Made by a program: the position numbers and the translations under genes. DNA of 42,397 nucleotides from Streptomyces afghaniensis 772 (lineage in GTDB: Bacteria; Actinomycetota; Actinomycetes; Streptomycetales; Streptomycetaceae). Location of the stretch: the NCBI GenBank assembly GCA_000415505.1, contig KE354375.1, positions 1-42,397 on the forward strand, in the 5' to 3' direction. Under the pieces are notes generated by a model. It made no database searches, was not told the origin of the DNA, and worked only from the letters and a program-made list of their open reading frames with translations. Numbering within the stretch: position 1 is the first letter of the stretch; each line of letters starts with the position of its first letter. Positions 8,630 through 35,678 of this stretch are shown here, piece by piece.

Positions 8630-8631
8630 GC

Positions 8632-10113: not shown

Positions 10114-10134
10114 TTCGGTCTGCGGGGAGGCTCG

Positions 10135-11768: not shown

Positions 11769-11824
11769 GCCGCGGGGCCGGGACGCGGCTGCGGGCTGTG
11801 CCGGACAGGGCACGGGCCGGCGCT

Positions 11825-11941: not shown

Positions 11942-12055
11942 TGGTGGTACGGCCGCGACCGGGCCTCGGCATACGCTGTGTGACCGCTCCGGAATCCTGC
12001 GTGAACGTCTCATGAACTGCGCTTGGGCGTACGCCGGTGGAGTCATCATGCTTGC

Positions 12056-13719: not shown

Positions 13720-13841
13720 GAGAGCCGTGCAGGGCCCTTAGACCGTAGGGGGGCGTGGGCGGCAGGGCGGGGGTACGGGCCCCGGCGGTTGGTGGCGCTG
13801 TCCGGGGCGGGCACCTGGGGACGGCTGTGGCCCCGTCCGGC

Positions 13842-14029: not shown

Positions 14030-14303
14030 CCGACCAGATCTGAACAACGACCCGACCGGGCGCCGCCAGGACCGTGCAACCGGCCACCCGGCCCAGCAGG
14101 CCCGGCCGCCGGCACAAGGCCGTCAACCGTTGCGGTCGGCGACCTTGACGCCCCATGGGCGCCGGTGAACACTTCCGGTGTCAGTCGACATCGCCGTACA
14201 TACTCGGCGTATCCGGCACTGCGGCGCGCGGGCGCGCCTGCGCCAAGGCCCTTTCCCCCACGGGCGATTCGGCTGCGATCGGCACGCTCGTCACGGACGC
14301 CGG

Positions 14304-14388
14304 GCGGGGCGCGGGTTTCCCTGCCTTCGGCTGAAGTAGCCATGGGAAACGCACCCCGCACATGAGGACCGGGGCAGATCGTCCCCGG
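14304..14388 (+). promoter_or_regulatory. Structured leader of glpF-glpK (two hairpins)
   Basis: A long interrupted hairpin is formed by GCGGGG (14304-14309) with CCCCGC (14354-14359), GTTTCCC (14315-14321) with GGGAAAC (14344-14350), and an apical CTTC-GGCT-GAAG (14325-14336). A second hairpin CCGGGG/CCCCGG (14369-14388) ends 20 nt before the glpF ATG. It could be an mRNA leader structure or operator for glycerol control; no known riboswitch class was recognised. Confidence 0.4.
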
Positions 14389-14408
14389 GCCTCGGCCTAG
14401 GAGCCGCC

Positions 14409-15206: not shown

Positions 15207-15230
15207 CCAAGCGATCAAGAGGTAGTAGCC

Positions 15231-16835: not shown

Positions 16836-17441
16836 TCAGGTGGTCACCGTCTGACGGCGGTCGGCCGCGTACGCCATGGCGTGCTGGACGACGCCGATGA
16901 GTGCTTCCTTGACCGACTCGCGGTCACGGGCGTCGCACATCAGGAGCGGAACGCCGTCGTCGAGGTCGAGGGCCTGGCGGACGTCCTCGACCGGGTAACG
17001 CGGTGCGCCCTCGAAGCAGTTGACGCCGACGAGGAACGGTATCGAGCGCCGTTCGAAGTAGTCCACGGCGGCGAAGGAGTCCTCCAGGCGGCGCGTGTCG
17101 GCGAGGACGACGGCTCCGAGGGCGCCCTCGGAGAGCTCGTCCCACATGAACCAGAACCGCTCCTGACCGGGCGTTCCGAAGAGGTACAGCACCAGGTCCT
17201 CGCGGAGCGTGATGCGGCCGAAGTCCATGGCCACGGTCGTGGTGTGCTTGCCTTCCACACCGCTGGTGTCGTCGACCGGGCGCCCGGCCTCGGTGAGCAG
17301 CTCCTCGGTGCGCAGCGGCCGGATCTCGCTGACCGCGCCGACGAGCGTGGTCTTGCCCACGCCGAAACCGCCGGCCACCAGGATCTTGAGCGTGACGGGC
17401 TCGACCGGAGGCTTGCCGCGCTCAGAACGCCCGAAGATCAT
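16836..17441 (-). CDS. cvnD: Conservon small GTPase-like protein CvnD
   Basis: 201-residue Ras/MglA-like ATP/GTP-binding protein, last gene of a conservon. The P-loop is GGFGVGKTT, switch region DFGRITL, G3 [12 protein letters not shown]; the G4 motif is the atypical VNCFEGAP usual in CvnD. It is expected to work with the CvnA sensor, CvnB and CvnC at the membrane. The ATG at 17441 has AGGAG 10-14 nt upstream and gives the family start [12 protein letters not shown]. However, there is no stop codon between the preceding oplAH gene and this ATG, so it can also be read as the C-terminal part of a 1411-residue fusion. Confidence 0.93.
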
Positions 17442-20400
17442 CGATCTCTTCTCCTGCTTGATGGGGGTCGGCGACGGCGGGCCGTAGCCTCCGCCGCCTG
17501 GGGTTTCGATGACGAGTACGTCGCCGGTGACGACGTCCGCGGAGTCGCTGCCGCCGAGTTCCGTCACGGTACCGTCGGCGTGTTCCACCCGGTTGGCGCC
17601 GAGAGCGCCCGGTTCTCCGCCCGCCATACCGTACGGGGGGACACGGCGGTGCTGGGACAGCGTGGAGACGGTCATGGGCTCCAGGAACCGGATACGACGC
17701 ACAGCGCCGTCGCCGCCGCGCCACCGGCCGGCTCCGCCGCTGCCGCGCCGGACCGCGAACTCCTCCAGGCGCACGGGCAGTCGCCACTCCAGGACCTCGG
17801 GGTCGGTGAGGCGGGAGTTGGTCATGTGCGTCTGGACGACGGGGGCGCCGGGGAAACCGTCGCCCGCGCCGGAGCCGGGGGCGACGGTCTCGTAGTACTG
17901 GTGGCGTTCGTTGCCGAAGGTGACGTTGTTCATGGTCCCGGAGCCCTCGGCCTGCACGCCGAGCGCCGCGTAGAGGGCGCCGGTGATGGCCTGGGAGGTC
18001 TCCACGTTGCCGGCGACGACGGCGGCCGGTGGCTCGGGTGAGAGCAGGGAGCCGGGCGGTACGACGATGTCCAGGGGGCGCAGGCAGCCGTCGTTGAGGG
18101 GGATGTCGTCGGCGACGAGCGTGCGGAAGACGTACAGGACGGCCGCGTTGACGACCGAGAAGGGGGCGTTGAAGTTGGTGGGCAGCTGCGCCGAGGTGCC
18201 GGTGAAGTCGATGGTCGCGGCACGGTTCTCGCGGTCCACGCGCACGCTGACCCGGATGATCGCGCCCGAGTCGGTCTCATAGGCGTAGTCACCGTCGTCG
18301 AGGGCGTCGATGACGCGGCGTACGGCCTCTTCCGCGTTGTCCTGGACGTGCCTCATGTAGGCCTGGACGACGTCGAGACCGAAGTCCGCGATCATGCGGC
18401 CGACCTCGTCGACGCCCTTCTGGTTGGCGGCGATCTGCGCGCGCAGGTCGGCGAGGTTGGTCTTGGGATTGCGCGAGGGGTACGGCGCCTCGGTGAGGAG
18501 GCGGAGGGTCTCGTCCTCGCGGAAGCGGCCGTTCTCGGCGAGCAGCCAGTTGTCGAAGAGGACGCCCTCCTCCTCGATGGTGCGGCTGTTCGCGGGCATG
18601 GAGCCGGGGGCGATGCCTCCGATCTCTGCGTGGTGGCCGCGTGAGGCGACGTAGAAGAGGATCTCCGGGTCACTCTCCGTGTCGTCCGACGGTGCGGCGT
18701 CGAAGACCGGGGTGATCACGGTGACGTCGGGCAGATGGGTGCCGCCGTGGTACGGGTCGTTGACGGCGTAGGTGTCGCCCGGGCGCATGCCAGAGCCCCG
18801 CCGCCGGATGACCTCCTTGACGCTCGTGCCCATGGAGCCCAGGTGAACGGGGATGTGCGGGGCGTTGGCCACCAGGTTTCCGTCCGGGTCGAAGAGCGCG
18901 CAGGAGAAGTCCAGGCGCTCCTTGATGTTGACGGACTGGGCCGTGGATTCGAGGCGGGCACCCATCTGTTCGGCGATGGACATGAACAGGTTGTTGAAGA
19001 CCTCAAGCAGAACCGGGTCGACTTTCGTGTCGAGTTCGGAACTCTGCGTAATCGCGGCGCGTTCCATGACCAGATGCCCGTGGTCCGTCGCCGCGGCCCG
19101 CCAGCCGTCGTCGACGACGGTCGTCGCGCCGGGTTCGGTGATGATCGCGGGACCGGTGACGGTGTCGCCGGGGGGAAGGTCCTCGCGGCGGTGGAGGGGT
19201 ACGTCGCGCCAGGCTCCGCCCGTGTGAAGGCGGACGGACCGGGGCGCCGCAGGGCTGCCGTCGGCGGTGGCTTCGCAGGGAGCGAGAGCGGAGAGATCGG
19301 GGGGTTCGGTGATGCCGGTGGCTTCGACGGAGAGGGCTTCGACAACGATCGGGCGGTCGAGCGTGAAGGAGTACGTGGCGCGATGACGTTCTTCGAAGGC
19401 GTGCCGCATGGTGCGCGGCTCGGTCAGCTCGACGGTGAGGGTGGTGTCGGTGCCGTCGTAGCGGAGCTGCGCGCGGCGGGTGATCTCGATGTGCTCCTCG
19501 GGGACGTCCTCGGCGAGGAGTTCGGCGCGTGCCGCGGCTTCCAGGTCTTCGGCGGTCTTGAGGACGCCGGGCATGGAGGCGGGTTCCAGTGGTGCCTCGA
19601 CGGACTGTTCGCGCATGGCGGTGGTGTCGGCGAGTCCGATGCCGAGTGCGGAGAGGACACCGGCCATGGGCGGCACGAGGACGGTGCGGATGCCGAGCGA
19701 GTCGGCGACCAGGCAAGCGTGCTGGCCGCCGGCGCCGCCGAAGGTGGTGAGGGCGTAGCGGGTGACGTCATGGCCCTTCTGGACCGAGATCCGCTTCACG
19801 GCGGACGCGATGTTGGCGACGGCGATCTGCAGGTAACCCTCGGCGACCTGTTCGGGGGTGCGGTCATCGCCCGTCTTCTCGCGGATCTCGCGCGCGAGGG
19901 CGGCGAAGCGGTCCCGGACGAGCGCGTCGTCGAGGGGCTCGTCACCGTTCGCGCCGAACACGTTCGGGAAATGGGCGGGCTGGATGCGGCCGAGCATGAC
20001 GTTGGCGTCGGTGACGGCGAGGGGGCCGCCGCCGCGGTAGCAGGCCGGCCCCGGGTCCGCGCCCGCCGAGTCCGGCCCTACGCGGTAGCGGGAGCCGTCG
20101 AAGTGCAGGACCGAGCCGCCGCCGGCGGCGACGGTGTGGATGTCGAGCATGGGGGCGCGCAGCCGGACGCCGGCGATCCGGCTGGTGAAGACACGTTCGT
20201 ACTCGCCCGCGAAGTGGGAGACGTCGGTGGAGGTCCCGCCCATGTCGAAGCCGATGACGCGGTCGAAGCCGGCGAGCTGCGACATGCGGGCCATCCCGAC
20301 GATGCCGCCGGCCGGCCCGGACAGGATGGCGTCCTTGCCGCGGAACTGCCCGGCCTCGGTGAGACCGCCGTTGGACTGCATGAACATCAGCCGTACGCCT

Positions 20401-21071
20401 TCGAGGGCGTCGGCGACGTGCCGGACGTAGCGGCGCAGGACGGGAGAGAGGTAGGCGTCGACGACGGCGGTGTCCCCGCGGGGGACGAGTTTCATCAGGG
20501 GGCCGACCTCGCTGGAGAGCGAGATCTGCGGGAAGCCGATGCGGGCGGCGAGTTCCCCGACGGCTTGTTCGTGGGCGGGGTGGAGGTGGCTGTGCATGCA
20601 GACCACGGCGACGGCCCGGATCCCGTCGTCGTAGGCCTCCTGGAGAGGTCCGGCGAGGGCGTCCAGGTCGGGCGCGCGCAGCTGGGTGCCGTCGGCGGCG
20701 ATGCGTTCGTCGACCTCGACGACCCGTTCGTACAGCAGCTCGGGCAGTTCGATGCGGCGGGCGAAGATGCTCGGGCGGTTCTGGTAGGCGATGCGCAGAG
20801 CGTCGTGGAAGCCGCGGGTGATGACGAGCAGGGTGCGTTCGCCCTTGCGCTCCAGGAGGGCGTTGGTGGCGACCGTCGTGCCCATGCGCACGGTGTCGAC
20901 AGGGTCGTCGGAGTCGGCCAGCAGGGTGCGGACGCCCTCGACGGCCGCGTCGGTGTAGCGGGCCGGGCTGTCCGACAGGAGCTTGTGCGTGAGCAGCCGG
21001 CCGTCCGGGCGACGCGCGACGATGTCGGTGAAGGTGCCGCCTCGGTCAACCCAGAACTGCCAGCCTGCCAC
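17442..21071 (-). CDS. oplAH: ATP-dependent 5-oxoprolinase, OplAH/HyuA-HyuB type, inside the conservon
   Basis: 1210 codons, the full length of eukaryotic-type 5-oxoprolinases, which open 5-oxoproline to glutamate using ATP. The HyuA half starts [19 protein letters not shown], with [13 protein letters not shown] and [10 protein letters not shown] at the nucleotide and metal site; the HyuB half runs from about residue 685 ([23 protein letters not shown]) to the end [17 protein letters not shown]. Start is GTG at 21071, 24 bp after the cvnC stop. There is no stop codon: the frame continues through [11 protein letters not shown] into CvnD. A C5 run (17463-17467) lies in this linker; with one more C the protein would instead end at 17422, overlapping cvnD by 20 nt. 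Hydantoinase activity is an alternative, but the fused full-length form favours 5-oxoprolinase. Confidence 0.93.
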
Positions 21072-21500: not shown

Positions 21501-21935
21501 CTACCCGCCTGCGGGCAGATCGGTGCGCGGAGCGGCACCCAGATGCACACCCACCCGCTTCACCAGGAGCGTCATCTCGTAGGCGACCTGACCGACGTCC
21601 GAGTCGGCGTCCGAGAGGACGGCGAGGCAGCTGCCGTCGCCGGCGGCCGTCACGAACAGGAAGGCGTCGTCGAGCTCGACGACCGTCTGACGGACGTTGC
21701 CGGCCTCGAAGTGGCGTCCCACGCCCTTGGCGAGGCTGTGGAACCCGGAGGCGACGGCGGCCAGGTGCTCGCTGTCCTCCCTGGTCAGGTCCCTGGACAC
21801 TCCGGTCGGCAATCCGTCGCCGGAGAGCACGAGGGCCTTGCGGATGCTCGCGACGCGGTCCACCAGGTCGTCGAGGAGCCAGTTCAGCTCCCCCTTGTTG
21901 GCTGCGGTGTGGCCGGTGGCCTTCGGTGCGGTCAT
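21501..21935 (-). CDS. cvnB: Conservon roadblock/LC7 protein CvnB
   Basis: 144-residue roadblock/LC7-domain protein, a probable regulator of the partner GTPase CvnD in the way MglB acts on MglA. It shows the family start (ELNWLLDDLVDRVASIRKALVLSGDGLPTG) and central strands (VVELDDAFLFVTAAGDGSCLAVL). Its ATG overlaps the cvnA stop (ATGA at 21935-21932), indicating translational coupling. Confidence 0.96.
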   Translation of the reverse strand: MTAPKATGHTAANKGELNWLLDDLVDRVASIRKALVLSGDGLPTGVSRDLTREDSEHLAAVASGFHSLAKGVGRHFEAGNVRQTVVELDDAFLFVTAAGDGSCLAVLSDADSDVGQVAYEMTLLVKRVGVHLGAAPRTDLPAGG

Positions 21936-24900
21936 CGACCGTCCCCCTCTGTCGTTCCTTGTCGTGCTGTGCCGCTGTGGGCGGCGTCGCCCGCTGCGTT
22001 CTCCTCGCGGCCGCGCTTCCAGCCGCGCTGGAGCGAGGCCATACGGCTGCGTACTTCGTCGGCGTCGCGTTCGACGGGCTCGGCTCTGTCCTCCGTACGC
22101 GGCTCGGACCCCCGCTTCAGCTGCGGTGCCAGGTTGGCCTGGCGCACGCGCCGGGGCAGCGGCGCGGTGCCGGACCGAGGCTCGTTCGGTGCGGATCCGG
22201 GAGCCTGCCCCCGTCTTCCGGAGCCGGGAGTCGCCCCGGTCTCCCGGGGCGTGGCACCGGAGCCGGTCATCTGGCCCGCGGGCCCGCCGGTGGGCTCCGG
22301 CCCGAGGCCCGACCTACGGTCGAAGCCGTCTTGGCCGCTCGATGCGATCTCCGCGCGGCGTGTCCGCGTGGGGAGAGTGGGCGGCTCCGGCCCGGTGCCG
22401 GAGGAGACCGGTGATTCGGTGCGGTCGTCGTTCCGGCCGGCGGCGCCGATGCCGCGGCGGCCGGACTCCGCCCCACGACGGCGGGCAGGCAGGGGCGGCG
22501 GTGAGTCCGGCTGCTGGTTTTCGCCTCGCCGGCTGCCGGTCGAGGAGCCTTCGGTGCGGCGGCGGACCGGAAGCGCGGACGCGGGCTCCGGCCCGGACCG
22601 GCCCGTGGCCCCGCCGCTCACGGAGTCGTCGCCCTGGCGACGCGAAGGAAGCGGGGAGGTGCCGCCCGGCTCCGCTCGACCGGTGCCCGTGGTGCTCTCC
22701 TCGTCCGTCTTCCCTCGCCGGGGGCGCTGCTCGGTGACCGGGCGCCCGTGCGAGCTGACCAGCTTCGGGGTGTGGCGGCGCGGCAGCTGGACCGGGGCGT
22801 TCGGGTCGTCGTCGGTGTCGGTCCGGTCGTGTGCGCTGTGGGCGTCGGCTGCCTGGTGCGGACCGGGGCGTCGGCCGGCTGCCTCGTCCTGGGCGCGGGT
22901 GAGGGGCCGGGGGCGGAACAGGGCGCCGTGTTCGCTGTCCTCGTCATCGAGCGCGCCGGGGAAGTCGCCGATGGCGTCCAGGTCGACGGGCGCCTCCAGC
23001 TCCACCGGTCCGTCCAGGAGGGAGGCCGGCAGGCCGGGCCGTTGCGCGGGTCCCTGGGACAGCGCGGCGCGGCGGCTGTCCTGCGGCTCGCTCTCCTTGG
23101 CCAGCTGGGGGCGGTCGAGTCGGAAGCCGATGCCGTTCGTGTCCGGGACGTCGTCCGTCAGCAGGGCGTCCGGGATGAAGACGACCGCGGTCGTGCCGCC
23201 GTACGGGGAGGGCTGCAAGGAGACGCGGACGTTCTGTCGCTGGGCGAGACGGCTGACCACGAACAGGCCGAGCCGGTCGGTGTCGGACAGCTCGAACTCC
23301 GGGGTCTCGGCGAGCCGGAGGTTGGCGTCCAGGAGCGCTTCGGCGGCCATGCCGAGACCGCGGTCGTGGATCTCCAGGGTGAAGCCGTTGGCGACCCGCT
23401 CGCCCAGGACCTGGACGGCGGTGTGCGGCGGCGAGAAGACAGTGGCGTTCTCGAGGAGTTCCGCCACGAGATGCGTGATGTCGGCGACGGCCGGGCCGGT
23501 GACGGCGATACGCGGAAGGCGGCGGACCTCGATGCGCTCGTAGTCCTCGACCTCGGCCACGGCGGCGCGTACGACGTCCATGAGCTGGACGGGCTTTCGC
23601 CACTGCCGGGAGGGCGCGGCGCCGGAGAGGATCACGAGGCCCTCGGCGTGCCGGCGCATGCGGGTGGTCAGGTGGTCGAGACGGAACAGATCGGCGAGTT
23701 CCTCGGTGTCCTCGGTCCGGCGCTCCATGGCGTCGAGCAGGGTGAGCTGCTTGTGGAGCAGGACCTGGCTGCGCCGCGCGAGGTTGACGAAGACCTCGGA
23801 GACGCCGGCGCGCAGTTCGGCCTGCTTGACGGCGGCTTCGACGGCGGCGCGCTGAAGGGTGTTGAGGGCCTGGCCGACCTCGCCCATCTCGTTCTTGTCG
23901 TACTCCAGGCGCGGGACCTCGGTCTCCACGTCGACCTGCTCGCCCGCAGACAGCCTGCGCATCACGCTGGGCAGCCGCACTCCGGACGCCTCGTGGGCCT
24001 CCAGACGCAGCTGCCGCAGGTCACGGATGAGGGTGCGGCCGACGCGCACGGACAGGAAGAGGGAGACCAGGAGAGCGAGCAGGCCGAGCACGCCGGCGAT
24101 GACAGCCTTGGCGATGACGCCCATGGCCACCGGTTCGACGCGGTTCTGATAGCGGTCGTTGGCTTGGTCGTTGAGCGTGCCGAGCTCGTCGAGCACGTTG
24201 CCGGCGGCGCTGTCCCAGCTCTTGGCGGTGACGCCACGCGGTGTTCCGTCGGCGGAGGAGAGGGCCGCTTCCTCGGCCACGCGCAGCGGAGCGGTGGAGG
24301 CGTTCTTCCAGAAGCTCTGGTAGCGGTCGCGTTCCGACACGGGCAGCAGCGGGAGGCTGGTGTCGTACATCAGGGTGCGCTGCGCCACGAGGTCGGAGAT
24401 GTCGCGCTCTTCCGAGTGGGAGATCTCGCCGACGATCAGGGCGGAGCCGAGGAGGGCGTCCTCGCGGGAGAGCAGTTCACGGGCGCGGGCGAGATTGACC
24501 AGCGCGCGGTACTGCTTGTCCAGTTCCACGTTGTCGACGACGTGGAGGTTGGCGAGCAGGACGTAGCACGGGTCGACCAGCCTGTTGTAGAGGTCGAGGG
24601 CCTGGGAGCGGTTGACGGTGCCGTCCTCGACGCTGCGGCGCAGCGACTCGATGCCTTCGAAGGCGTCCAGGACCGCGGTCAGCCGCTCGTCGGTGTCCGC
24701 TCCCATCGCGTCGCGCACGTCCGGATTCCGGGCGTTCTCGCGGATGCCGCCGACGGCCTCGTCGGTGGCGGTCCGGCTGCGCCGGAGCGCGGCGAGCCCG
24801 TCGGAGGCACGGGGGTCGGCGAGGTAGACCAGGGTCTGACGGCGCTCCTCCTGGAGGACGCGGACGGTGTCCTCGATGGGGTAGCCGATCTTCTCCACCA

Positions 24901-25039
24901 CGGACGACACGTTGAACAGGTCGCCCGCCTCACGTCCCGTGAGCACCGTGGCGAAGGCCCAGATCGCGGTCAGGGACACCAGCGGCACGAGAAGCAGCGC
25001 CACGATCTTCCGGCGGATGGACTTCCCGCGAAAGCGCAT
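21932..25039 (-). CDS. cvnA: Conservon sensor histidine-kinase-like protein CvnA
   Basis: 1035-residue membrane protein. A first membrane segment near the N-terminus (IVALLLVPLVSLTAIWAF) is followed by a long extracytoplasmic nitrate/nitrite-sensor-like helical region. A second membrane segment (VIAKAVIAGVLGLLALLVSLFL) leads to a HAMP-like stretch and an ATPase domain with N box ELLENATVFSPP and G1 DRGLGM. No classical H-box His was seen, as is usual for CvnA. The last ~300 residues are a Pro/Ser/Gly/Arg-rich low-complexity tail. The ATG at 25039 is chosen because GGGGGAGG lies just upstream. It is first gene of the conservon and may perceive an unknown signal. Confidence 0.94.
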   Translation of the reverse strand: MRFRGKSIRRKIVALLLVPLVSLTAIWAFATVLTGREAGDLFNVSSVVEKIGYPIEDTVRVLQEERRQTLVYLADPRASDGLAALRRSRTATDEAVGGIRENARNPDVRDAMGADTDERLTAVLDAFEGIESLRRSVEDGTVNRSQALDLYNRLVDPCYVLLANLHVVDNVELDKQYRALVNLARARELLSREDALLGSALIVGEISHSEERDISDLVAQRTLMYDTSLPLLPVSERDRYQSFWKNASTAPLRVAEEAALSSADGTPRGVTAKSWDSAAGNVLDELGTLNDQANDRYQNRVEPVAMGVIAKAVIAGVLGLLALLVSLFLSVRVGRTLIRDLRQLRLEAHEASGVRLPSVMRRLSAGEQVDVETEVPRLEYDKNEMGEVGQALNTLQRAAVEAAVKQAELRAGVSEVFVNLARRSQVLLHKQLTLLDAMERRTEDTEELADLFRLDHLTTRMRRHAEGLVILSGAAPSRQWRKPVQLMDVVRAAVAEVEDYERIEVRRLPRIAVTGPAVADITHLVAELLENATVFSPPHTAVQVLGERVANGFTLEIHDRGLGMAAEALLDANLRLAETPEFELSDTDRLGLFVVSRLAQRQNVRVSLQPSPYGGTTAVVFIPDALLTDDVPDTNGIGFRLDRPQLAKESEPQDSRRAALSQGPAQRPGLPASLLDGPVELEAPVDLDAIGDFPGALDDEDSEHGALFRPRPLTRAQDEAAGRRPGPHQAADAHSAHDRTDTDDDPNAPVQLPRRHTPKLVSSHGRPVTEQRPRRGKTDEESTTGTGRAEPGGTSPLPSRRQGDDSVSGGATGRSGPEPASALPVRRRTEGSSTGSRRGENQQPDSPPPLPARRRGAESGRRGIGAAGRNDDRTESPVSSGTGPEPPTLPTRTRRAEIASSGQDGFDRRSGLGPEPTGGPAGQMTGSGATPRETGATPGSGRRGQAPGSAPNEPRSGTAPLPRRVRQANLAPQLKRGSEPRTEDRAEPVERDADEVRSRMASLQRGWKRGREENAAGDAAHSGTARQGTTEGDGR

Positions 25040-25456
25040 GGCCTCCCCCAGCTCGGGCCCCCGGGCCACCGGGGGTACACATGTGCGTCAACAAACGGCG
25101 CGAGCCTACTACCGACGCCCAGGGAACTCGAAGGCCGGTCCGGAAGATGAACTTCCGCGCCAGCCACGAGGCATGTGGAGTTGTCCGGGCATTGCGGGAG
25201 TTGTCTCCCCGAAACCGATGGTGGCCTCGTGGGTCAAGGCCCGTCGACCGCCTGGGCGGTTGGCTGAAATTTTTCGGTTTCCGGGAATCTTCGTGGGAGG
25301 TCGTTCGTCCTTCTCTACGGGAAATGGGGGCGGAATCGGCCACAGGAGCCGCATCCCGCACCTGGGCGGCGTAAAGCAGCGCAAGCCGGGCAGCCACTGG
25401 GGAACACGGGTCTTCGGATGCGAGCGAGCAGTCTGCTGGCGGTGGGGAGTGACACG
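25040..25456. promoter_or_regulatory. Divergent intergenic region between cvnA and the membrane protein gene
   Basis: 417 bp without a convincing gene. On the minus strand TAGGCT (in GTAGTAGGCTCG, about 25101-25107) with TTCGAG 18 nt upstream is a possible cvnA promoter. An AT-rich patch with AAATTTTTCGG near 25270 is unusual for this genome. No palindrome beyond a short CACATGTG-type one was found. Confidence 0.3.
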
Positions 25457-26017: not shown

Positions 26018-26103
26018 GCATGGACGGGCAGTCGGCCCGCGTCTGAGTGACTGCGGAAGGGGTGGCTTCCTGCAGTCCATCTGGCGCAAGGCCGGTTCCA
26101 CAC

Positions 26104-26139
26104 CTCAGGGTTGGTTCGACTGATCAAACCCGCCCTGAG
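26104..26139. promoter_or_regulatory. Inverted repeat upstream of the APC permease
   Basis: CTCAGGG (26104-26110) and CCCTGAG (26133-26139) are perfect 7-bp arms. Inside are GGTT/AACC (26113-26116, 26127-26130) and the palindrome TGATCA (26121-26126). It ends 24 bp before the permease ATG. It could be an operator or an mRNA hairpin. Confidence 0.4.
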
Positions 26140-26163
26140 AGAACGCGCCTTGAGGAACCGCCC

Positions 26164-27732
26164 ATGAGACCGACCGCGCAGTCCACAGAACCACACGGCA
26201 AGGACGACGCCGAACTCACCGAGTTCGGCTACAGACCCGAACTCAAACGCACCCTCGGCAACTTCCACACCTTCGCCGCCGGGATCAGCTACATCTCGAT
26301 CCTGACCGGTACCTTCCAGCTGTTCTACTTCGGCTACGGCAGCGGCGGCCCCGCCTACTGGTGGTCGTGGCCGATGGTCTTCGTCGGCCAGTTCATGGTC
26401 GCCCTGTGCTTCGCGGAGCTCGCCGCCCGCTATCCCGTCGCGGGGTCCGTCTACAACTGGTCGAAGAGAATAGGCAATCCGCATCTGGGCTGGCTCGCCG
26501 GCTGGATGATGCTGATCGCCTCGATCGTGTCCATATCGGCCGTGGCACTGGCCTACCAGTTGACGCTGCCGCAGATCTCGTCGTTCTTCCAGTTCGTGGG
26601 GGACGGCACGGGTACGTACGACGTGGCGACCAACGCGGTCATCCTGGCCGCGGTGTTGATCCTGTTCACCACCCTGGTGAACGCCTTCGGCGTCAAGTTG
26701 ATGGCGACGATCAACACGGCGGGCGTGTTCATCGAGTTGATCGCCACTGTCGTGTTGATCGCCCTGTTCGCGGTCCACATCACGCGCGGCCCGCAGGTCG
26801 TGATGGAGACGCACGGCACCGGCGCCGGCTACGGCAACGGGTATCTCGGTGCCTTCCTGGTCGCCTCACTGGCCTCGGCGTACGTCATGTACGGTTTCGA
26901 CACCGCGGCCTCGCTCGGCGAGGAGTCCCTGGACCCGACCCGGAACGCGCCGCGCGCGATCATCCGGGCCATCGTCGCCTCGTTCGTGCTCGGCGGCCTG
27001 ATCCTGCTGCTCGCGCTGATGAGCGTCTCCAGCCTGAAGGTCGAGAAGCTGTCCACGGACGGCTTGCAGTACATCGTCCTGGACGTGCTGGGCCCGACGG
27101 CCGGCAAGGCGATGCTGTGGTGCGTGCTGATCGCGGTGACGGTGTGCGCCCTGGCCGTGCACACGGCGGCGGTCCGGCTGGCGTTCGCGATGGCCCGCGA
27201 CAACAACCTGCCCGCGTCCTCGCGGCTGGCCAAGTGCCATCCGCGCTTCCAGACGCCGGTCCTGCCTACCGTGATCATCGGGATTCTCGCGCTGGCGATC
27301 CTGGTGGTCAACATCCGCCAGCCGCAGATCTTCACGGTCGTCACCAGCATCGGCATCATCATGATCTACCTCGCCTACCTGGGCGTCACGGTGCCGCTGC
27401 TGGTCGCGCGGCTGCGCGGCACGTGGCAGCCCGCGGGCGAGGGCCGGTTCTCGCTGGGCCGCTGGGGACTGCCGGTCAACATCGTGGCCGTGCTGTGGGG
27501 CGGAGCCATGACGCTGAACCTGATCTGGCCGCGGGCCGCGGTCTACAACGCAACGGCCCCCTACCACTGGTACCTGCGCTGGGGCGCGGTGCTGTTCGTC
27601 GCCGTCATCGCGGGCGGCGGCTTCGCCTACTACTGGTTCGTCCAGCGGCACCGGACCGGCGTGCTCGCCGAGCATCGTTCGGACGTCGGGGCCACCGCTC
27701 CCGCCGCCCCGGCGGCCGACAGCAGCACCTGA
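26164..27732 (+). CDS. APC superfamily amino-acid permease
   Basis: 522-residue transporter with about 12 membrane helices. The family start is clear (YRPELKRTLGNFHTFAAGISYISILTGTFQLF), with the conserved ELAARYPVAGSVYNW segment of helix 2-3 and GFDTAASLGEESLDPTRNAPRAI, both typical of the GABA/choline/amino-acid permease branch. The ATG at 26164 has GAGGAA upstream. The substrate cannot be read from sequence; GABA, another amino acid or a derivative such as 5-oxoproline are possibilities, the last only from the nearby oxoprolinase genes. It is convergent with the SMC-like gene. Confidence 0.92.
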   Translation: MRPTAQSTEPHGKDDAELTEFGYRPELKRTLGNFHTFAAGISYISILTGTFQLFYFGYGSGGPAYWWSWPMVFVGQFMVALCFAELAARYPVAGSVYNWSKRIGNPHLGWLAGWMMLIASIVSISAVALAYQLTLPQISSFFQFVGDGTGTYDVATNAVILAAVLILFTTLVNAFGVKLMATINTAGVFIELIATVVLIALFAVHITRGPQVVMETHGTGAGYGNGYLGAFLVASLASAYVMYGFDTAASLGEESLDPTRNAPRAIIRAIVASFVLGGLILLLALMSVSSLKVEKLSTDGLQYIVLDVLGPTAGKAMLWCVLIAVTVCALAVHTAAVRLAFAMARDNNLPASSRLAKCHPRFQTPVLPTVIIGILALAILVVNIRQPQIFTVVTSIGIIMIYLAYLGVTVPLLVARLRGTWQPAGEGRFSLGRWGLPVNIVAVLWGGAMTLNLIWPRAAVYNATAPYHWYLRWGAVLFVAVIAGGGFAYYWFVQRHRTGVLAEHRSDVGATAPAAPAADSST

Positions 27733-27761
27733 CCGCGGTCGGCCGCGGGACCGTTGGGCCG

Positions 27762-27784
27762 GTCGCGCAGCTCCCCGCGCCCCT
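27762..27784. repeat. Dispersed Streptomyces-type GC repeat fragment
   Basis: GTCGCGCAGCTCCCCGCGCC followed by CCT closely resembles the short GC-rich intergenic repeat (GCGCAGTTCCCCGCGCCCCT) found very often at gene ends in Streptomyces chromosomes. It lies between the convergent permease and SMC-like genes, where it may take part in termination. Identification is from memory. Confidence 0.4.
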
Positions 27785-30700
27785 AAGACGGCGTGGACGC
27801 GGGGCGTTTGTACATCCTGGTCGCCGTGATCTCGCTGTGTACCGCCTCCCCCGCCTGGGGCTGCTGCGGCAGTCCCGGGCGGAGGTGTTCCTCGACGCTG
27901 ATGTACTTGAGGCCGGCTCTCAGGTCGGCGTCGTTGCGCATGCGGATGACCAGGGGGAACTCGGCGAGCGCCGTGGTGTCGAACAGGCCCGTGGTGTAAA
28001 GGAGCTGGACGCCCAGGGCGTCCGACACCGCCCGCTGGAGTTCCAGCAGGTACGTGGCGTTGGCGCGGCCGATGGGGTTGTCGAGGAACAGCGTGCCGGC
28101 GTGCCGGTGTTTGTCACGGCCCCGGTCGTTCGAGCGCAGCGCGGCCATCGTGCAGTACAGGGCGATGGCGGCGGTGAGGAGCTGGCCGCCGGAGAAGACG
28201 TCGCCCATCTGGCCGACGGGGACGCGCTCGGCGCGCAGCACCGCGTCGGGCTTGAGGATCTCGACGGCGACGCCCTTGGGCTGGAGTGCCGCCGAGACGC
28301 CCCGCAGCAGCAGGGACATGCCGTCCCGCCGCAGGTCCGAGTTCTTCTTGACGGCGGCCCGGGTCGCCTCGTCGATGACCTCGCCCAGCCGTTCGGTGAG
28401 CGTGGCCTGGTCGGGCTCCTCGAAGCGGATGCGCAGGAACTCCTGTCCCGACCACTCGCCGAGGCCCTCCGGAAGGCGGGAGAGCCGCTGGGCGGAGCGC
28501 AGGGTGGCCAGGGCCGACTCGACCAGGCCGCGCAGCCGGTCCACGATCGAGTCGCGGTTGCGCTCCAGCTGCTCCAGCTCGTCCGTCAGGACCCGGAGCC
28601 GCGGCGCGAAGGCGTCGGCCCACTTCTGGGCGTGTTCGGGCAGTGCGGAGGCGGGCAGTTCGCGGATCTGCTGCCGTGCCGGGGTGCGGACCTGCTCGTA
28701 GCGCGTGGAGTTGGCGTGCCGGACGAGGATGTCACTGGCCTCACGGACGGCGGCCTCCGCGGCGGACAGGTCGGCGGCACAGCCGCGCAGGGAGCGGCGG
28801 GCCTCGGCGGCCGACTGCCGGGCCTCCTCCGGGCTGCCGGGGTATGGCTCGGTCTCCTCCTGCTCCTCCTCCGTGGTGTGCTCGCGCAGCAGGTCGCGGA
28901 GCATGGCGGCGATCTCGTCGAAGCCGCTCGCCGCGTCCTCGGCGGCGCGGTGGGCGTCGAGGAGCTCGGCGTGCGCCTCGCGGGCTTGGTTCAGCGCCTC
29001 GGTGTGGGAGGCGAGTTCGGCCGTGGCCGTGCGCAGCAGGGCCTGCGCGTGCTCGGCGTCGCGCGGCCGGCGGTCCTCGGGCAGGTCGGTGTGCGCCTCG
29101 CCGTCCTCGGGCGCGAGCCGTTCGGCCTCGCCGCGCAGCCGCCCGAGCTGCTCGCTCGCGCTCGACATGCGGGTCTCCAGGAGCTGCACCAGCTCCTCGG
29201 CACGGGCGGCGGCGGCCTGGCGGCTGGGTCCGTCGGAGCCGTCGGGGGATTGAAGGAGCTGCTCCGCGCGCGTGCGGACCTTGTTGCTCAGCCGGTCCAG
29301 CTCCGCGCGGGCCGCGCTCTCGTCGCTCTCCGCGCGGGCTTGCTCGGCCCGCAGGTCGGCGCCGACGCCGACCTTCTCGTACAGCTGCGACGCCGCCCGG
29401 TAGGCCTCGCGCAGGGCAGGCAGGGAGGCCTTCGGGGTCTGGGCGTCGTCCTCGGGTACGTCGTCGGGGGCGCCGGCGATCTCGGAGCGCTCGGCGCGCA
29501 GCGCGCGGGCGGTGCGGCGGGCGTCGTCGGCGGCGCGCTGGGCGGCCCGCCGGTCCTCGTCGGCGGCCCGGGCCCGCTCCAGGCAGGCCTGGGCGCTCGC
29601 CTCGGCCTCGGCTGCCTCGTCGGCCAGTTCACGCAGCTTGACCTGCCAGCCGGCCCGCTCACGGAGGCGGAAGGCGAGTCCGGCGAGGGCGTCGGCGGAG
29701 CGGCGGGCCTTCTGGGCGGCTTCCTGCCGCTCGTCCCGGACGCGTGCGGCCTCGGTGGCGGCCTCGTCGGCCTCCGCGCGCACGGTGCGCGCCTCGGCCA
29801 GCTCGGCTTCCGACTCCTCGGCGAACGCGCGGGTGTCGTGAGCCGCCTGCGCCAGTTCGGCCAGCCGGCCGGCCGGGCAGCCGGTGCGCCAGGAGGCGAG
29901 CCGGGCGGCCAGTTCCCGGTCCTTGCCGAGCCGGGCGGCGAGCGTGCGGATCTCCTCGTCCCGCTCGGTCGCTCGGGCGCGCAGCGCCTGGCGCTCCTCG
30001 TCTGCGGCGTGCTCGTCGTGCATGGCCGGGTTCGGCGGGACGAGGAACACGTCACCGCTGTCGGTGTCCGGGGCGGGGGTCGGGGCGAGCAGAGCGGCGG
30101 CCGTGCCGACCGCCACGGCGGAACGGGGCAGCAGAGCCGCGTCGCCCAGCGCCTCCCGGGCGCGTGCGTGGGAGTCCGGGTCGGTGATGATCACGCCGTC
30201 GACCAGTTCGGGCCGGGCGGCCAGCACGCGCGCGTGGTCGGCCGGGTCGACGGCCTGGGCGAGGTAGCGCCAGCCGGGCAGCGCGGGGATGCCGTGCTCG
30301 CCGAGGAACTCGACCGTGGCCAGCACGTCCGGGCCGGGCGGCAGCAGCCCGCCGTCACCGAGCGCGCCGAGGATCCGGGAGTCGTCGGCGGCGGCCGTAC
30401 GCAGGTCGAACAGCTGCCGTTCGGCGGAGTCGACGGCGTCGTCGAGCAGTTCGCGCAGGTCGTCGGCGAAGCGGTCGAGCTCCTCGGGGCTGAGCCCCTG
30501 CTCGCCGGGGACGGGCCGGGTGGCCGGCTCGCTGTCCGCGTCGTGGCGGGGCTGCGGGATGCCCGGGCGGGTCTCGGGAGTCAGGCTGAGCAGTTCCGCC
30601 AGCCGCTCCTCCCCCGCCAGTGCCTCGGCGGTGCGGCGCTCGGCCTCGTACGACCGCTCGGCGGCCGTCGCCGCGTCCGCCGCGCGGGCCGCGGTCAGTT

Positions 30701-31364
30701 CCGCGCGGGTCTCGGCGGCGGCGGCTTCGCGCGCGTGCTCGGCGGCCCGGTGGGACGCCTCACGGGCCGAGTCCCAGGCCGCGACGGCGGTCTTCTCGGC
30801 GTCGCTGGCGGCGAGGGCCGCCCGGGCCGGGTCGGCGTCGGGCGCGCTGTCGTCGAGCCAGCCGGCCCGGACCGCCTCGGCGGTCTCCTGCTCGACCTCG
30901 GCGAGGCGCTGCTTGAGGTGCCCGACCTCGCTGCGGGCCCGCTGCGCCTGTGTGGCAGCGGCGGTGGAGTCCCGGTAGGCGGCGTCGCTGACCTCCTGGA
31001 GGGCGGCGGAGCGCTCCTCCTCCTCGTTCGCGTGGTTCTCGGCGCTCTCCGCGGCCGCGTGCAGGGCCCGTACGAGGTCGACGGCGGCCTTGGAGCGGGC
31101 GGCCAGGGCCGGGGCGGCGTCGCGCTCCGCCTCCTGGATCGCGGCGGACACGCGGGCGACGCGGTCGGCGGCGGCGCGGTGGCGCAGTACGGCCTCGGCG
31201 GCCTGCCAGGCGGAGTACAGCGTGCGGGCGTCGGCGAGCTCGCGCTTCTGCGCGGCGGCGGACTTCTCGGCCGCGGCGAGGGCCAGCGAGGCGTGCCGGT
31301 AGGCCAGTTCGGCGGAGATCAGCGCGCTGCGCTCGCGGGCCGCCTCGGCGTGGGTGACGGCATA

Positions 31365-31392
31365 CGCGGCGGCGGTCGACCGCGTCGGGCCA
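31365..31392 (-). other. Apparent frameshift 2 in the SMC-like gene
   Basis: The amino-terminal frame is coding up to about ERARAADLARR and then runs to a stop at 31319. The carboxy-terminal frame looks coding from AAAYAVTHAEAARERSAL onward. One missing base in this stretch explains the change; no homopolymer longer than two is at the junction. Confidence 0.6.
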
Positions 31393-32308
31393 GGTCGGCG
31401 GCCCGGGCCCGCTCCTGCACGCCGCGCGCGGACAGTCTGCGGGCCAGGGTCCGGGTACGGCGCTCGGCTCCGGCGTGGATGTCACGCGCGCGTGAGCGGG
31501 CCTCGGCGGCCTCGACGATCCGTCCGAGCAGGTCGACGGACCCGGCGGTGAAGTCGCGTTCGGCGATCAGCTCGGCGCGCCGGCCCAGCTTGTTGCCGAA
31601 GCCGCTGACCAGGTCGGCGAGCCCGTCGGTGTCACGCGTGTCGGTGACGGCGCGCAGCAGCAGGTCGGTGAAGTCGGCGTCCTTCTTGACCGCGAAGAGG
31701 CCTGCGGCTTCACCCTCGTCGGCGTTCATCTCCCGCTGGTAGCGGAAGAGTTCGGGGTCGAGGCCGAGGTCGCCGAGGTGCTCGATCCAGCGGTCGTGGA
31801 TCTCCTCCCAGTGCACCTCCAGGTGCGGGTACGTCTTGCCCGCCTCCATGAGGGCGTCGCGGAAGCCCTTCATCGTGCGACGCCGGCCGCGCGCGCCCGA
31901 CTGGCCCTCGACCGGGGCCCGTACGGCGGTGGACTCGGCCACGGGGAGGTTGTCGAGGCTCAGTCCGGGCCCGGGCCGGAAGGAGTACCAGGCCTCGGCG
32001 AACTTGCGCGGGTCGTTGGAGACCTGCCGGCCGCGCCACTCGCTGACCTTGCCGACGACGACGCACTCGCCGGTCAGCACGTGCTGCCACTCCAGCGCGA
32101 CATGGCCGCAGTCGTCGGCGAGCAGGAACTTGCGCAGCACACCGGAGCTGGCCCCGCCGAGGGTGTTGCGGTGTCCCGGCAGCATCACGGAGAAGATCAG
32201 CTTGAGCAGCACCGACTTGCCGCCGCCGTTCTCCAGGAAGAGCACGCCCGCGGGCGCGGGCCGGCGCGGCGGGCCGACGGGCTCCTCCTCGAAGAACTCC
32301 GCCTGCGT

Positions 32309-32313
32309 GGGGG
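32309..32313 (-). other. Apparent frameshift 1 in the SMC-like gene (G5/C5 run)
   Basis: The start frame reads LRGVGEPVPDP and then loses coding character, while another frame continues TQAEFFEEEPVGPP into the Walker A motif. Adding one C to the C5 run (G5 on the plus strand) joins them as VPDPPPTQAEFFEEE. Confidence 0.7.
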
Positions 32314-32455
32314 CGGGTCGGGCACGGGCTCGCCCACACCGCGCAGGTCAAGCACGGTGTCGGCGTAGCGCGCACCGGCGGGCCCGATGGAGTAGAGGCG
32401 GACCCGGGACAGCTCGTACATGGCGGACTTTCGTAAGGCTTCGTGGGGTGGGGGT

Positions 32456-33337
32456 TCAGGAGGAGTGGAACGGCAGCCCGGCGTCGGCGACCAGGTCCAG
32501 GTCGTCGCTCTCCTCGGGGGGCAGCAGCGTCGGGGTGCCGTCGGTGACCGGGACGACGCCCAGCTCCAGCAGCTCGGCCAGGGCGGCGCTGCCGGCCATG
32601 TCGCGGACCTGGAGCTGGTAGCGGGCGGTCGTGCGGTACGTGCCGCCGTTGTCGTCGCCGGTGCGCTGGAGGAAACCGGAGTCGGTGAGGAACGCGACGG
32701 CCTTGGCGACGATGCCGGTGGTCGAACCGGCGAGCCGGCGCGCGTCCTTGGTGGCCCCGGTGGAGCTGCGTCGCACCCAGATCCGCCAGGCGGCCTCCAG
32801 ACCTGGCGCGTCGGTGGCCGGGTCGGTGTTCTCGCCCTGTTCGGCGGCGCGCTCCTCCAGGCGGTGGCAGGCCTGGCGGACGAAGGCGTCGACGCCGTTG
32901 ACCGTGACGCGGCCGATGTAGCCGTCGTCGGCGAGGTCCTCGGGGCGCGGGAACGCCATGGCGGCGACGGCGAGATGGGCGAGCCCGTGCAGGAACCGGT
33001 CGCCGCCGTCGGCGGACGTACGACGCGCGTAGTCGCCCATGCGGACGGCGAACACCGAGTCCTCGGCGGCGGTCACGGCCATGCCCGCGCGCGGGGACAC
33101 CTCCAGCACGATCAGCCCCAGTCCGGTCGCCACGGCGTCGGCGAGCCGCGCGAAGGGCGGGTCCTCCCGGTACCGCCGCAGCAGGTCCGCGTACTCCTGG
33201 TCGCGTGCGGGCTGGAGCTTGGGCTGCAGCCCGAAGGACACGAGCCGAGCCGCGTCGGCGGCGTCGGCGGGAGTGACGGCGGCCGAGGCCGTCGGGGCCG
33301 GGACTTCCGGCTCACTCCACTCGACATGCTCGCTCAC
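32456..33337 (-). CDS. Putative KITE-type subunit (MksE/JetB-like) of the SMC locus
   Basis: 293-residue soluble protein. The N-terminal ~40 residues are Pro/Ala-rich. The body shows helical segments (DQEYADLLRRYREDPPFARLADAVA, RFLHGLAHLAVAAMAF, VNGVDAFVRQACHRLEERA) and a C-terminal winged-helix-like unit (AGSTTGIVAKAVAFLTDSGF, then GTYRTTARYQLQVRDMAG). Size, winged-helix character and its place between a kleisin-like gene and an SMC gene match MukE/MksE/JetB; I did not recognise a domain by sequence, so this is inference from context. The GTG at 33337 is chosen because AAGGAG lies 8 nt upstream; a GTG at 33358 lies before the ribosome binding site. It starts 31 bp after the upstream gene. 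Confidence 0.8.
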   Translation of the reverse strand: MSEHVEWSEPEVPAPTASAAVTPADAADAARLVSFGLQPKLQPARDQEYADLLRRYREDPPFARLADAVATGLGLIVLEVSPRAGMAVTAAEDSVFAVRMGDYARRTSADGGDRFLHGLAHLAVAAMAFPRPEDLADDGYIGRVTVNGVDAFVRQACHRLEERAAEQGENTDPATDAPGLEAAWRIWVRRSSTGATKDARRLAGSTTGIVAKAVAFLTDSGFLQRTGDDNGGTYRTTARYQLQVRDMAGSAALAELLELGVVPVTDGTPTLLPPEESDDLDLVADAGLPFHSS

Positions 33338-33368
33338 GGTCGGGACTCCTTGTGCCACTTGTACTGAC

Positions 33369-34895
33369 TCATGCTGCTTCCGTCCGGTCCGCCGCCATCC
33401 CCGCCGCGTCCAGCAGCGCGGTACCGACGATCAGATCCGCCCCGCCGAACTCCGGATCATCGAGCTCGGTCCCGTCGTCCACGGCGAACAGCAGCTTCTG
33501 CTCGCCCTGGCGATAGGCGGTACCGACCGGCGGACTGGCCGCGTGCACCGCCAACAGGGCCACGAGATACGGCAGCTCGGGATCCTGGCGCCGGGCCTCG
33601 GCCAGCAGTCCGGACAACCGGCGCGGCGCATCCGCCGGCAGGTCGAGCAGCTCCTGCGCGGCCGCCATCTGCTCCTCGCTGAACCGGCTGTCGTCGGGCG
33701 TGGCGATGAGGTCCGGCTCGGGCATCTCCGCACCCAGGTGCTCCCGCTCCACCGGCGGCGTCAGCAGTATGTCGACCAGGTCCCCGACCCGGACGGACAC
33801 CGGCGTACGCAACCCGGTGCCGTGCCCGAAGAACGCGTCCGTGACCCGCACGGCCTGCTCCAGCGGCAGCGGCAGGACGGGCGAGACGAGATGCCCGTAG
33901 AGGTCGATCCCCGAGGCGGTCGCCGGCGTGGCGAAGGCCTGCCGGTCCTGCTCGGCGCGGAACAGCGGACCGGCCTCGAGCAGCCGGGACTGCAACTGGG
34001 TGTGCCGCCGGATGCAGTCCTTGACGATGTCGACGAGCTCGGCGGCGCGGCGCTTGTGCTCGGGCTCCTCGGACTCGTCGCGGGCCTTGCGGATGTTCGT
34101 GAGGATCGCGTTCTCGTGGCGGTAGCGGTCGGCCACGTGCTCCAGGGCCTCGGCGATCATGTCGGGCACGGTGGTGAGCCAGTCCACCGCGCGCACGTTG
34201 CGCCGGGTCGCGTCCAGCGCGCGGCGCAGGGTCTCCGAGTACTGCACGGTGCGGTAGCGGGCCTGTTCGGCCGCGAGCTGGGCGTCGGCGAGCCGGCCGC
34301 GGCTGATCAGCACCTCCAGCTTGACCTCGGCGGCGATCTGCGCGCTGGTGACGTCCGTGTCGAGGGCGCCGACGAGGACGTTGACCGCCTCGTCCGTCGT
34401 CCGCAGGTAGACCGTGCCGCCCGGGCCCGGGACCTCCTCGATCAGCTTGAAGTCGTAGTCACGGCGCACATACGTGCCGTCCGCCCCGAACGTGCCGTAC
34501 ACCGCGCGGAAGCCGCGGTCGACGCTGCCGACGTTGATCAGGTTCTCCAGGACCCAGCGGGCCACCCGCTCGTGCTCGGCGGCGGGCCGCTGCGGGGCCT
34601 GGGCGGCGATGCGCGGGATGAGGCGGGCGACGATCTGGTCGTGGTCCGCGCCCGTGTCGAAGTCCATGTTGAGGGTGACGAGGTCGATGGCCGCGAGGGC
34701 GACCTCCGCCATGCCGTACACCGAGTACTCACCGGCGAGGTTGGCCTTGCGCGCGTCGAGGTCGTGCAGCGGCGCGGTGCAGGCGAGCGCGCGCAGGCGG
34801 CGCGCCAGGCCCTCGTCGGCGGCCGGCCCCGGGGCGGGGCGCGGCCCCGCGCTGAGCTGGGGCGGAACGCTGTCCGTCGATGCAGGCGAAGTCAC
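33369..34895 (-). CDS. Putative kleisin-type subunit (MksF/JetA-like) of the SMC locus
   Basis: 508-residue soluble protein, first of three genes with the SMC-like ATPase. The N-terminal region looks winged-helix (ERVARWVLENLINVGSVDRGF, YDFKLIEEV, GTVYLRTTDEAVNVLVGAL). It is followed by long helices (AEVKLEVLISRGRLADAQLAAEQARYR to NAILTNIRKARDESEEPEHKRRAAELVDIV) and a C-terminal part with VRVGDLVDILLTPP and acidic loops. This winged-helix, helical middle and C-terminal domain layout is that of MukF/MksF/JetA. The family is assigned by architecture and gene order, not by a recognised signature. Start GTG 34895 lies 7 nt after a TAGTCT -10, so the transcript is probably leaderless; a TTG at 34925 is the alternative. 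Confidence 0.82.
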   Translation of the reverse strand: MTSPASTDSVPPQLSAGPRPAPGPAADEGLARRLRALACTAPLHDLDARKANLAGEYSVYGMAEVALAAIDLVTLNMDFDTGADHDQIVARLIPRIAAQAPQRPAAEHERVARWVLENLINVGSVDRGFRAVYGTFGADGTYVRRDYDFKLIEEVPGPGGTVYLRTTDEAVNVLVGALDTDVTSAQIAAEVKLEVLISRGRLADAQLAAEQARYRTVQYSETLRRALDATRRNVRAVDWLTTVPDMIAEALEHVADRYRHENAILTNIRKARDESEEPEHKRRAAELVDIVKDCIRRHTQLQSRLLEAGPLFRAEQDRQAFATPATASGIDLYGHLVSPVLPLPLEQAVRVTDAFFGHGTGLRTPVSVRVGDLVDILLTPPVEREHLGAEMPEPDLIATPDDSRFSEEQMAAAQELLDLPADAPRRLSGLLAEARRQDPELPYLVALLAVHAASPPVGTAYRQGEQKLLFAVDDGTELDDPEFGGADLIVGTALLDAAGMAADRTEAA

Positions 34896-34933
34896 GGTGC
34901 ACAGACTAGGTCCTGGGTCTGACAACGACCCAA
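34896..34933 (-). promoter_or_regulatory. Probable leaderless promoter of the SMC operon
   Basis: On the minus strand TTGGGT (34933-34928), 19 nt, TAGTCT (34908-34903), 7 nt, then the GTG start at 34895. The -10 to GTG spacing is what is expected when transcription starts at the initiation codon, and there is no usable Shine-Dalgarno sequence. Confidence 0.5.
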
Positions 34934-34948: not shown

Positions 34949-35644
34949 TCAGCCGTCCTCGCCGACCCGCCGCCGGTACACCTCGACGACCCGTTCCAGC
35001 GAGTCGTCGAGGTAACCGGCGAGCAGACGCTCGGCCTTGTCCCGGTCCCCCGCCTGAAGCGCCTCAAGAATCGTGATATTTCGTGCGATGTACGGCTCGT
35101 GCAACTGCTGCGGTTCATCCACCACGTGGAACGCGAGGCGCAGTTCGGCGAACACACTCCGCATCAACTCGGCGGTGCGCTCGCTCGCCGCGAGGGCGAC
35201 CAGCTCCCGGTGGAAGTGGATGTTGGCCGTGCCCACCCCCTTCCAGTCGCCTTCCCGCGCCGCCTGCCGGCCCTCCTGCACGGCACCGGCGAGCCCGTCG
35301 AGGCCGTACGGCGGCTCGCCGAGACCGCGCACGACGGCACACTCGACGAGCCTCCGGGTGCGGTAGATGTCCTCGACGTCCTCGACGGTCAGGACCCGGA
35401 CGAAAACGCCCCGGTTCAGCTCGTGGACGAGCAGGCGTTCGTGCGTGAGCAGCCGGAACGCCTCGCGCAGCGTGTTGCGGGAGACGCCGAGCGCGCCGCC
35501 GATGCTGTCCTCCGACAGCCGGGTGCCGGGCGGGAAGTAGCCCTCGGCGATCCGGCTCCTGAGGATGTCCGAGACGCGTTCGGCGGTGCTGGTGCGACCC
35601 AGGAGAGCCCGGTCGTCGGAGAGGTCCCTCAGCTGCTCTGCCAT
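34949..35644 (-). CDS. GntR-family regulator, FadR/FCD subfamily
   Basis: 231-residue repressor-type regulator. The N-terminal winged helix is TAERVSDILRSRIAEGYFPPGTRLSEDSIGGALGVSRNTLREAFRLL, and the C-terminal all-helical FCD effector domain contains the metal/ligand-binding His residues (NIHFHRELVALA, EPYIARNITILEAL). It is divergent from the transporter-DUF1445-pxpABC operon and very likely controls it, with 5-oxoproline or a related acid as probable effector (inference from neighbours). The ATG at 35644 (MAEQLRDL) is chosen; an upstream TTG at 35656 is possible. No strong ribosome binding site is seen for either. Confidence 0.9.
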   Translation of the reverse strand: MAEQLRDLSDDRALLGRTSTAERVSDILRSRIAEGYFPPGTRLSEDSIGGALGVSRNTLREAFRLLTHERLLVHELNRGVFVRVLTVEDVEDIYRTRRLVECAVVRGLGEPPYGLDGLAGAVQEGRQAAREGDWKGVGTANIHFHRELVALAASERTAELMRSVFAELRLAFHVVDEPQQLHEPYIARNITILEALQAGDRDKAERLLAGYLDDSLERVVEVYRRRVGEDG

Positions 35645-35678
35645 GCCGGAATTCAATCGCAGATTTCAAGAACGAACC

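Follow-up and report, generated by a model that had tools for sequence, protein, structure and literature searches.

Wadjet complexes are loop-extruding structural maintenance of chromosomes (SMC) machines (PMC12647877), in which JetABC uses ATP to sense circular DNA by its shape and JetD does the cutting (PMC10586767). Wadjet was reported in 42% of actinobacterial genomes and is enriched towards the ends of Streptomyces chromosomes (PMC10482375), a count that may or may not include the operon described here. The MksBEFG system of Corynebacterium glutamicum has a nuclease, MksG, and acts on plasmids (PMC10123090), and a review offers, as a tempting speculation, that MukBEF and MksBEF descend from Wadjet (PMC10586767). 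Here we analysed a stretch of 42,397 nucleotides from Streptomyces afghaniensis 772 (contig KE354375.1, positions 1 to 42,397 of the forward strand; "the window" below). It carries a jetA-jetB-jetC operon, assigned by sequence to type III Wadjet, with no jetD beside it, and in the family Streptomycetaceae this three-gene operon has the distribution and inheritance of core genes. No description of such a Streptomyces operon was found in titles and abstract openings of the open-licence PMC literature, and the word Wadjet is absent from the available excerpts of two papers on Streptomyces SMC proteins (PMC8410768, PMC13121528).

A type III Wadjet operon lacking JetD

The window locus (L004) was compared within a set of 142 loci exceeding 8 kb (117 core, 25 accessory), where a genome may in some cases be represented twice, once with and once without a name. 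The operon comprises the following features:

33369..34925, minus strand: jetA, type III subunit in the kleisin position, 518 aa; matches PADLOC JetA3 (PDLC00567, E=1.9e-188)
32456..33358, minus strand: jetB, subunit in the KITE position, 300 aa; assigned by position and 30-57% identity to accessory JetB
27783..32421, minus strand: jetC region, type III SMC ATPase, frame-broken in the assembly; JetC3 (PDLC00588) matched on both large pieces
31319..32245, minus strand: open reading frame (ORF) of the JetC N-terminal piece, with Walker A FLENGGGKSV; JetC3 E=3.3e-101
27783..31151, minus strand: ORF of the JetC remainder, with VFSGGQLL and TLFLDNPIG; JetC3 E=2.1e-278

The gaps of 10 bp between jetA and jetB and of about 34 bp between jetB and jetC give the layout of an operon, and the guanine-cytosine (GC) content by codon position agrees with coding for the jetA, jetB and jetC ORFs. 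A plus-strand ORF of 1793 aa overlapping jetC (26361-31742) failed the codon-position GC filter and was taken as a shadow ORF. ORFs, short gaps and profiles bear out the JetA-JetB-JetC order given in a preliminary description of this DNA. That description had recognised no signature of a known Wadjet type, which must be corrected given the matches of JetA and of both JetC pieces to type III models. The profile searches that it proposed were positive for JetA and JetC and negative for JetB and for MukF, MukE and MukB. Window JetB matched no PADLOC profile; at a threshold of E=0.1 the commonest JetB3 model detected 6 of the 18 JetB members in the alignment, and the best E-value of any JetB3 model was 7.6e-4. 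No operon protein matched the MukB, MukE or MukF Pfam families at E up to 1. Nor does the operon encode ScpA: JetA has no match to PF02616, which was found on another contig of the same genome (C305).

Four type III JetD queries were searched, at E up to 1e-6, against the window locus and the examined flanks. A JetD match was found in the flanks of none of the 117 core loci, the window locus included, versus 19 of the 25 accessory loci, and the absence of JetD from beside the operon, stated in the preliminary description, was thus confirmed. No match was found in accessory loci L037, L038, L101, L102, L107 and L110; contig ends truncate the operons in L038, L102 and L110. A survey for a JetD elsewhere, also suggested at that stage, did return one from the same genome, but within a separate accessory locus: contig C525 (locus L003) encodes a JetA at 39% identity together with JetB, JetC and JetD3 (PDLC00594, E=6.5e-122). 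The source genome holds a type III JetABCD system and, apart from it, the JetD-less operon.

The search for JetD3 was extended to 150 genomes of the genus, with the settings of the JetA search described below; all 43 genome handles listed occur in the JetA sample. Any match was found in 23 genomes, 13 of them strong (E <1e-40) and 10 weak. All 13 genomes with a strong JetD3 also have core JetA, while 134 have core JetA without a strong JetD3. In each of the 13, one JetD3 locus was examined and held JetA, JetB, JetC and JetD matches; second JetD3 matches in G112 and G173 are not part of this count. The JetD_C family PF09983 was detected in three of 20 checked genomes, one hit being the accessory copy of the source genome; PF09983 genes of G009 and G012 lie away from the core operon. 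PF09983 is a weak test for type III JetD, as it missed the known JetD3 of G007.

Some accessory loci deserve separate mention. At L003 (C525, 13000-28880) the jetC ORF continues beyond the point where that of the relative L104 stops and overlaps jetD in a different frame, which hints at a frame problem there as well. L107 (G666, from another family; 8392-15376) holds JetABC without a detected JetD, possibly a second loss of JetD, and is followed by a gene that we take to be a phosphoserine aminotransferase. At L037 (G047, 4120-5703), on a contig of 16.7 kb, a gene similar to jetA stands without any match to JetB or JetC.

Distribution across genus, family and phylum

JetA was searched in a genus and a family sample of 150 genomes each, which overlap, the source genome being part of the former. 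A match was present in 148 of 150 same-genus genomes and an ortholog at 80-100% identity in 147, two or three of which are partial at contig edges. Only a distant copy was found in G143, and none in G096 and G174, both drafts of more than 1000 contigs. The family sample gave the same counts (match in 148/150, ortholog in 147/150), at 74-100% identity and across 16 of 17 genera, the exceptions being G183, with a weak copy, and G241 and G304, with none. Among 396 genomes sampled across the phylum, 28 had a match: 20 belong to the same genus, and eight (28-42% identity) come from other families, with a single one of the eight spanning just 70 residues. In other families of the same order, JetA was matched in 2 of 15 genomes, and neither copy (L037, L038) falls in the core clade. 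The best 80 named loci of at least 562 relatives were all from Streptomyces; together with the origin given for L121 in the tree, they underlie the assignment to Streptomycetaceae.

Five of 72,556 plasmid records matched JetA, all below 60% identity, and the best was a linear Rhodococcus plasmid with an annotated JetD after the operon. Scans of viral contigs turned up a single JetA locus and no JetB locus. In this locus (L201, IMG/VR contig IMGVR_UViG_2936099427_000006) a core-like JetA (87%) lies at the very end of the contig, perhaps in the host flank of a prophage.

Phylogeny and selection

A maximum-likelihood tree was built from 54 JetA sequences (29 core, 19 with JetD and 6 left unclassified). 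A branch with 100/100 support sets the core sequences apart from all others, and they are nested among JetD-bearing sequences, the nearest being L109, which has JetD, and L110, which is cut by a contig end. Nine long rows were flagged in this tree, two of which (L036 and L111) are placed close to the core clade. JetA and ScpA distances across 24 genomes were correlated (Pearson 0.85, Spearman 0.84), none of 2000 permutations reaching values as high. Mean identity in these genomes was 83.5% for JetA over 498 columns, compared to 78.7% for a 220-residue stretch of ScpA. ScpA was found in all 24 genomes, indicating that Smc-ScpAB has not been replaced.

The ratio of nonsynonymous to synonymous substitution rates (dN/dS) in six core pairs was 0.02-0.07 for jetA, 0.07-0.15 for jetB and 0.09-0.18 for jetC. 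Two accessory pairs gave 0.13-0.38, a range inflated by the closer relationship of these pairs. The core operon is under purifying selection and is inherited like a core gene. We also took the positions at least 90% invariant in ten JetD-bearing relatives (nine for JetC) and counted those occupied by the same residue, at least 95% invariant, in the core set. This was the case for 93 of 110 positions in JetA, 39 of 45 in JetB and 151 of 169 in JetC; since most invariant positions are kept, the motor looks largely unchanged.

Integrity of jetC

The reading of jetC in the window shifts frame twice, from a short start at about 32421 to the ORF at 31319-32245 and then to that at 27783-31151, and the pieces were searched separately against profiles. 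The SMC-like ATPase of about 1550 residues announced by the preliminary description is therefore present as an SMC gene with JetC3 matches, but not as a single open frame. In relatives jetC is a single ORF (e.g. 1545 aa in L039). An ORF of at least 1450 aa was found in 105 of 117 core loci, and eight of the remaining 12 are cut by contig ends, which leaves 105 intact genes among 109 uncut loci. The four core loci with a broken or lost jetC are the window and those of G012, G010 and G185. Walker A (FLENGGGKSV), signature (VFSGGQLL) and Walker B (TLFLDNPIG) motifs are identical in all 105 intact core JetC. SMC proteins usually have D-E in Walker B, and type III JetC has D-N-P there; we rejected DN as a core-specific mark, since neither residue varies among the 14 aligned JetC (3 core, 11 accessory).

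The source assembly comprises 1724 contigs. Non-triplet gaps in the window jetC numbered three against each of four relatives and five against a fifth, while jetA and jetB showed none against the same five. The MFS, hydro-lyase, permease and gntR genes showed one to three such gaps against some of the five. The frame breaks may be assembly errors or a real lesion.

A conserved C-terminal tail of core JetB

One feature sets core JetB apart:

32456..32515 (limits approximate), minus strand: JetB C-terminal acidic linker and AGLPFH motif

All 114 core JetB ORFs end in an acidic linker followed by LP[FY][HF] (AGLPFH in 110, variants in 4), while the motif is absent from the last 40 residues of all 23 accessory JetB; three core loci (L042, L085, L183) yielded no JetB ORF. 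The motif is the best-kept part of the tail, with L and P in all sequences, F in 99% and H in 97%. We predict that it serves in docking and was acquired by the lineage without JetD.

Interpretation and alternatives

On the basis of distribution, phylogeny and selection, we propose, and consider probable, that JetD was lost once in the ancestor of Streptomycetaceae and that JetABC has since been passed on vertically as a chromosomal complex that does not cleave DNA and coexists with Smc-ScpAB. The nuclease of a type III Wadjet ancestor would have disappeared in a single event, and with JetD gone the remaining motor could fold DNA instead of cutting it. In this complex JetC would act as SMC ATPase, with JetA as its kleisin-like and JetB as its KITE-like partner. 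JetABC would be loaded onto DNA and extrude loops, leaving the DNA uncut and acting as a second chromosome-organising complex next to Smc-ScpAB, and the LP[FY][HF] tail would dock a partner acquired in place of JetD. This would amount to a MukBEF-like transition, as a separate case within type III. A chromosomal role is suggested by the near-universal chromosomal retention of the operon, its conservation above that of ScpA and its coexistence with Smc-ScpAB. The chromosome-organising SMC family put forward in the preliminary description thus gains comparative support from distribution, absence of JetD, a single clade and ScpA-like distances, the role itself staying a prediction. That the complex is a further bacterial condensin, whose nuclease was lost once, whose JetB tail docks a new chromosomal partner and which works beside Smc-ScpAB, is a fuller claim that we regard as evenly poised.

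Several points weigh against this proposal. Losses do occur: G012 keeps only jetA, G010 and G185 have a broken jetC, G143 and G183 carry distant copies only, and G096, G174, G241 and G304 none, so that the operon is dispensable. The frame-broken jetC of the window itself belongs here, and the conserved-position comparison did not reveal the loss of a JetD contact. JetA and JetB profiles had no significant similarity to solved structures (best E 0.36 and 0.13), and the JetC profile retrieved only coiled-coil proteins (designed coils, dynactin). AlphaFold2 models from shallow alignments were poor, with a mean predicted local distance difference test (pLDDT) score of 41.6 for JetA and 40.8 for JetB, and Foldseek found no match to either at E up to 0.001. 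With these low-pLDDT models a MukBEF entry (9gm7_C) ranked first for JetA at E=0.032 and a MukEF entry twelfth for JetB at E=0.88. We did not use the models as proof, and infer a kleisin fold for JetA and a KITE fold for JetB from homology to JetA and gene position. The JetD searches leave room for a diverged JetD elsewhere in the genome. Finally, the proposal rests on sequence comparison.

The alternative that survives best, although we think it unlikely, is that the operon still serves defence: JetABC would sense foreign circular DNA and recruit another effector in replacement of JetD, possibly via the JetB tail. The nesting of the core clade within a plasmid-defence family, the retention of most positions invariant in JetD-bearing relatives and the new conserved tail, which suggests a new partner, would all fit. 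However, neighbour clustering of 28 core loci revealed no further gene conserved as a fourth member of the operon; the neighbour seen most often (18 of 28 loci) is convergent with jetC, and the near-universal, ScpA-like inheritance is unlike that of the patchy accessory copies. The plasmid-defence function also envisaged in the preliminary description is disfavoured by this pattern of inheritance, short of exclusion. A split-locus Wadjet, in which JetD comes in trans from a gene that is unlinked or has diverged strongly, is very improbable. The 10 weak JetD3 matches, the PF09983 genes of G009 and G012 and the insensitivity of that Pfam search speak for it, but a partner of the core operon would be expected nearly everywhere, whereas strong JetD3 is confined to 13 of 150 genomes, each with its own JetABCD locus, against 147 with core JetA. 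It is very improbable that JetABC silences or limits plasmids and integrated elements through compaction without cleavage; a motor conserved without nuclease would suit this idea, which is otherwise conjecture, but silencing alone would not explain family-wide retention. That the operon is a decaying remnant of defence, as the broken jetC of the window and the degraded copies of G012, G010 and G185 might suggest, has next to no credibility given intact jetC with identical motifs in 105 of 109 uncut loci, dN/dS far below 1 and a JetA better conserved than ScpA.

If the operon does encode such a further condensin, the transition proposed from Wadjet to MukBEF would have been repeated here independently, with JetD-bearing relatives still present in some of the same genomes. 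Studies of Streptomyces chromosome folding may then have overlooked another SMC complex besides Smc-ScpAB, one with a kleisin conserved no less than ScpA. A Wadjet-related machine devoid of its nuclease appears to be a standard chromosomal gene set in Streptomyces and relatives, suggesting that a plasmid-defence system has turned chromosome organiser. This family-wide candidate for a change from defence to condensin occurs in genetically tractable bacteria that also have JetD-bearing relatives, which makes the idea testable.

Genomic neighbourhood

Two genes flank the operon:

34949..35656, minus strand: GntR/FCD regulator, upstream of jetA
26047..27732, plus strand: amino-acid permease, convergent with jetC

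Profile matches agree with the preliminary description in placing both genes there. The regulator was matched in 93 of 117 core loci, mostly from Streptomyces, and in 11 of 28 more diverse loci; it is a common neighbour in close relatives but not across genera. The permease was matched in a minority (31 of 117). Upstream of jetA, a scan for regulator words gave only GACAC, in 15 of 80 loci and without a control, from which nothing was drawn.

Further away, the window encodes a NIT-domain sensor kinase and a Roadblock/LC7 gene (21501-25069), the kinase being matched in 64 of 117 core loci; we take this cluster to resemble a Streptomyces conservon. Placement on the S. coelicolor map by equating this conservon with cvn9 failed, SCO1631 being listed as a helicase and SCO1632 and SCO1633 as Tat genes in published work. 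A single ORF at 16836-21071 combines hydantoinase A and B domains with a C-terminal ATP_bind_1 domain, either an odd fusion or a frame artefact.

Comparison with known SMC systems

The operon resembles type III Wadjet in its JetA and JetC profile matches, its A-B-C gene order and its similar ATPase motifs, but it lacks JetD, shows core-gene inheritance throughout a family and carries a JetB tail not seen in accessory copies. With MukBEF and MksBEF it shares a three-gene set without nuclease, in the operon a putative kleisin, a putative KITE subunit and an SMC protein; it differs in the lack of Muk Pfam matches, in the retention of Smc-ScpAB alongside and in its position inside the type III tree. 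The MksBEFG system of C. glutamicum is likewise an actinobacterial Wadjet-type SMC operon, but includes the MksG nuclease, which has no counterpart in the operon described here. Like Streptomyces Smc-ScpAB, JetABC is a chromosomal SMC complex encoded by core genes, whereas ScpA is encoded elsewhere in the genome and belongs to another family.

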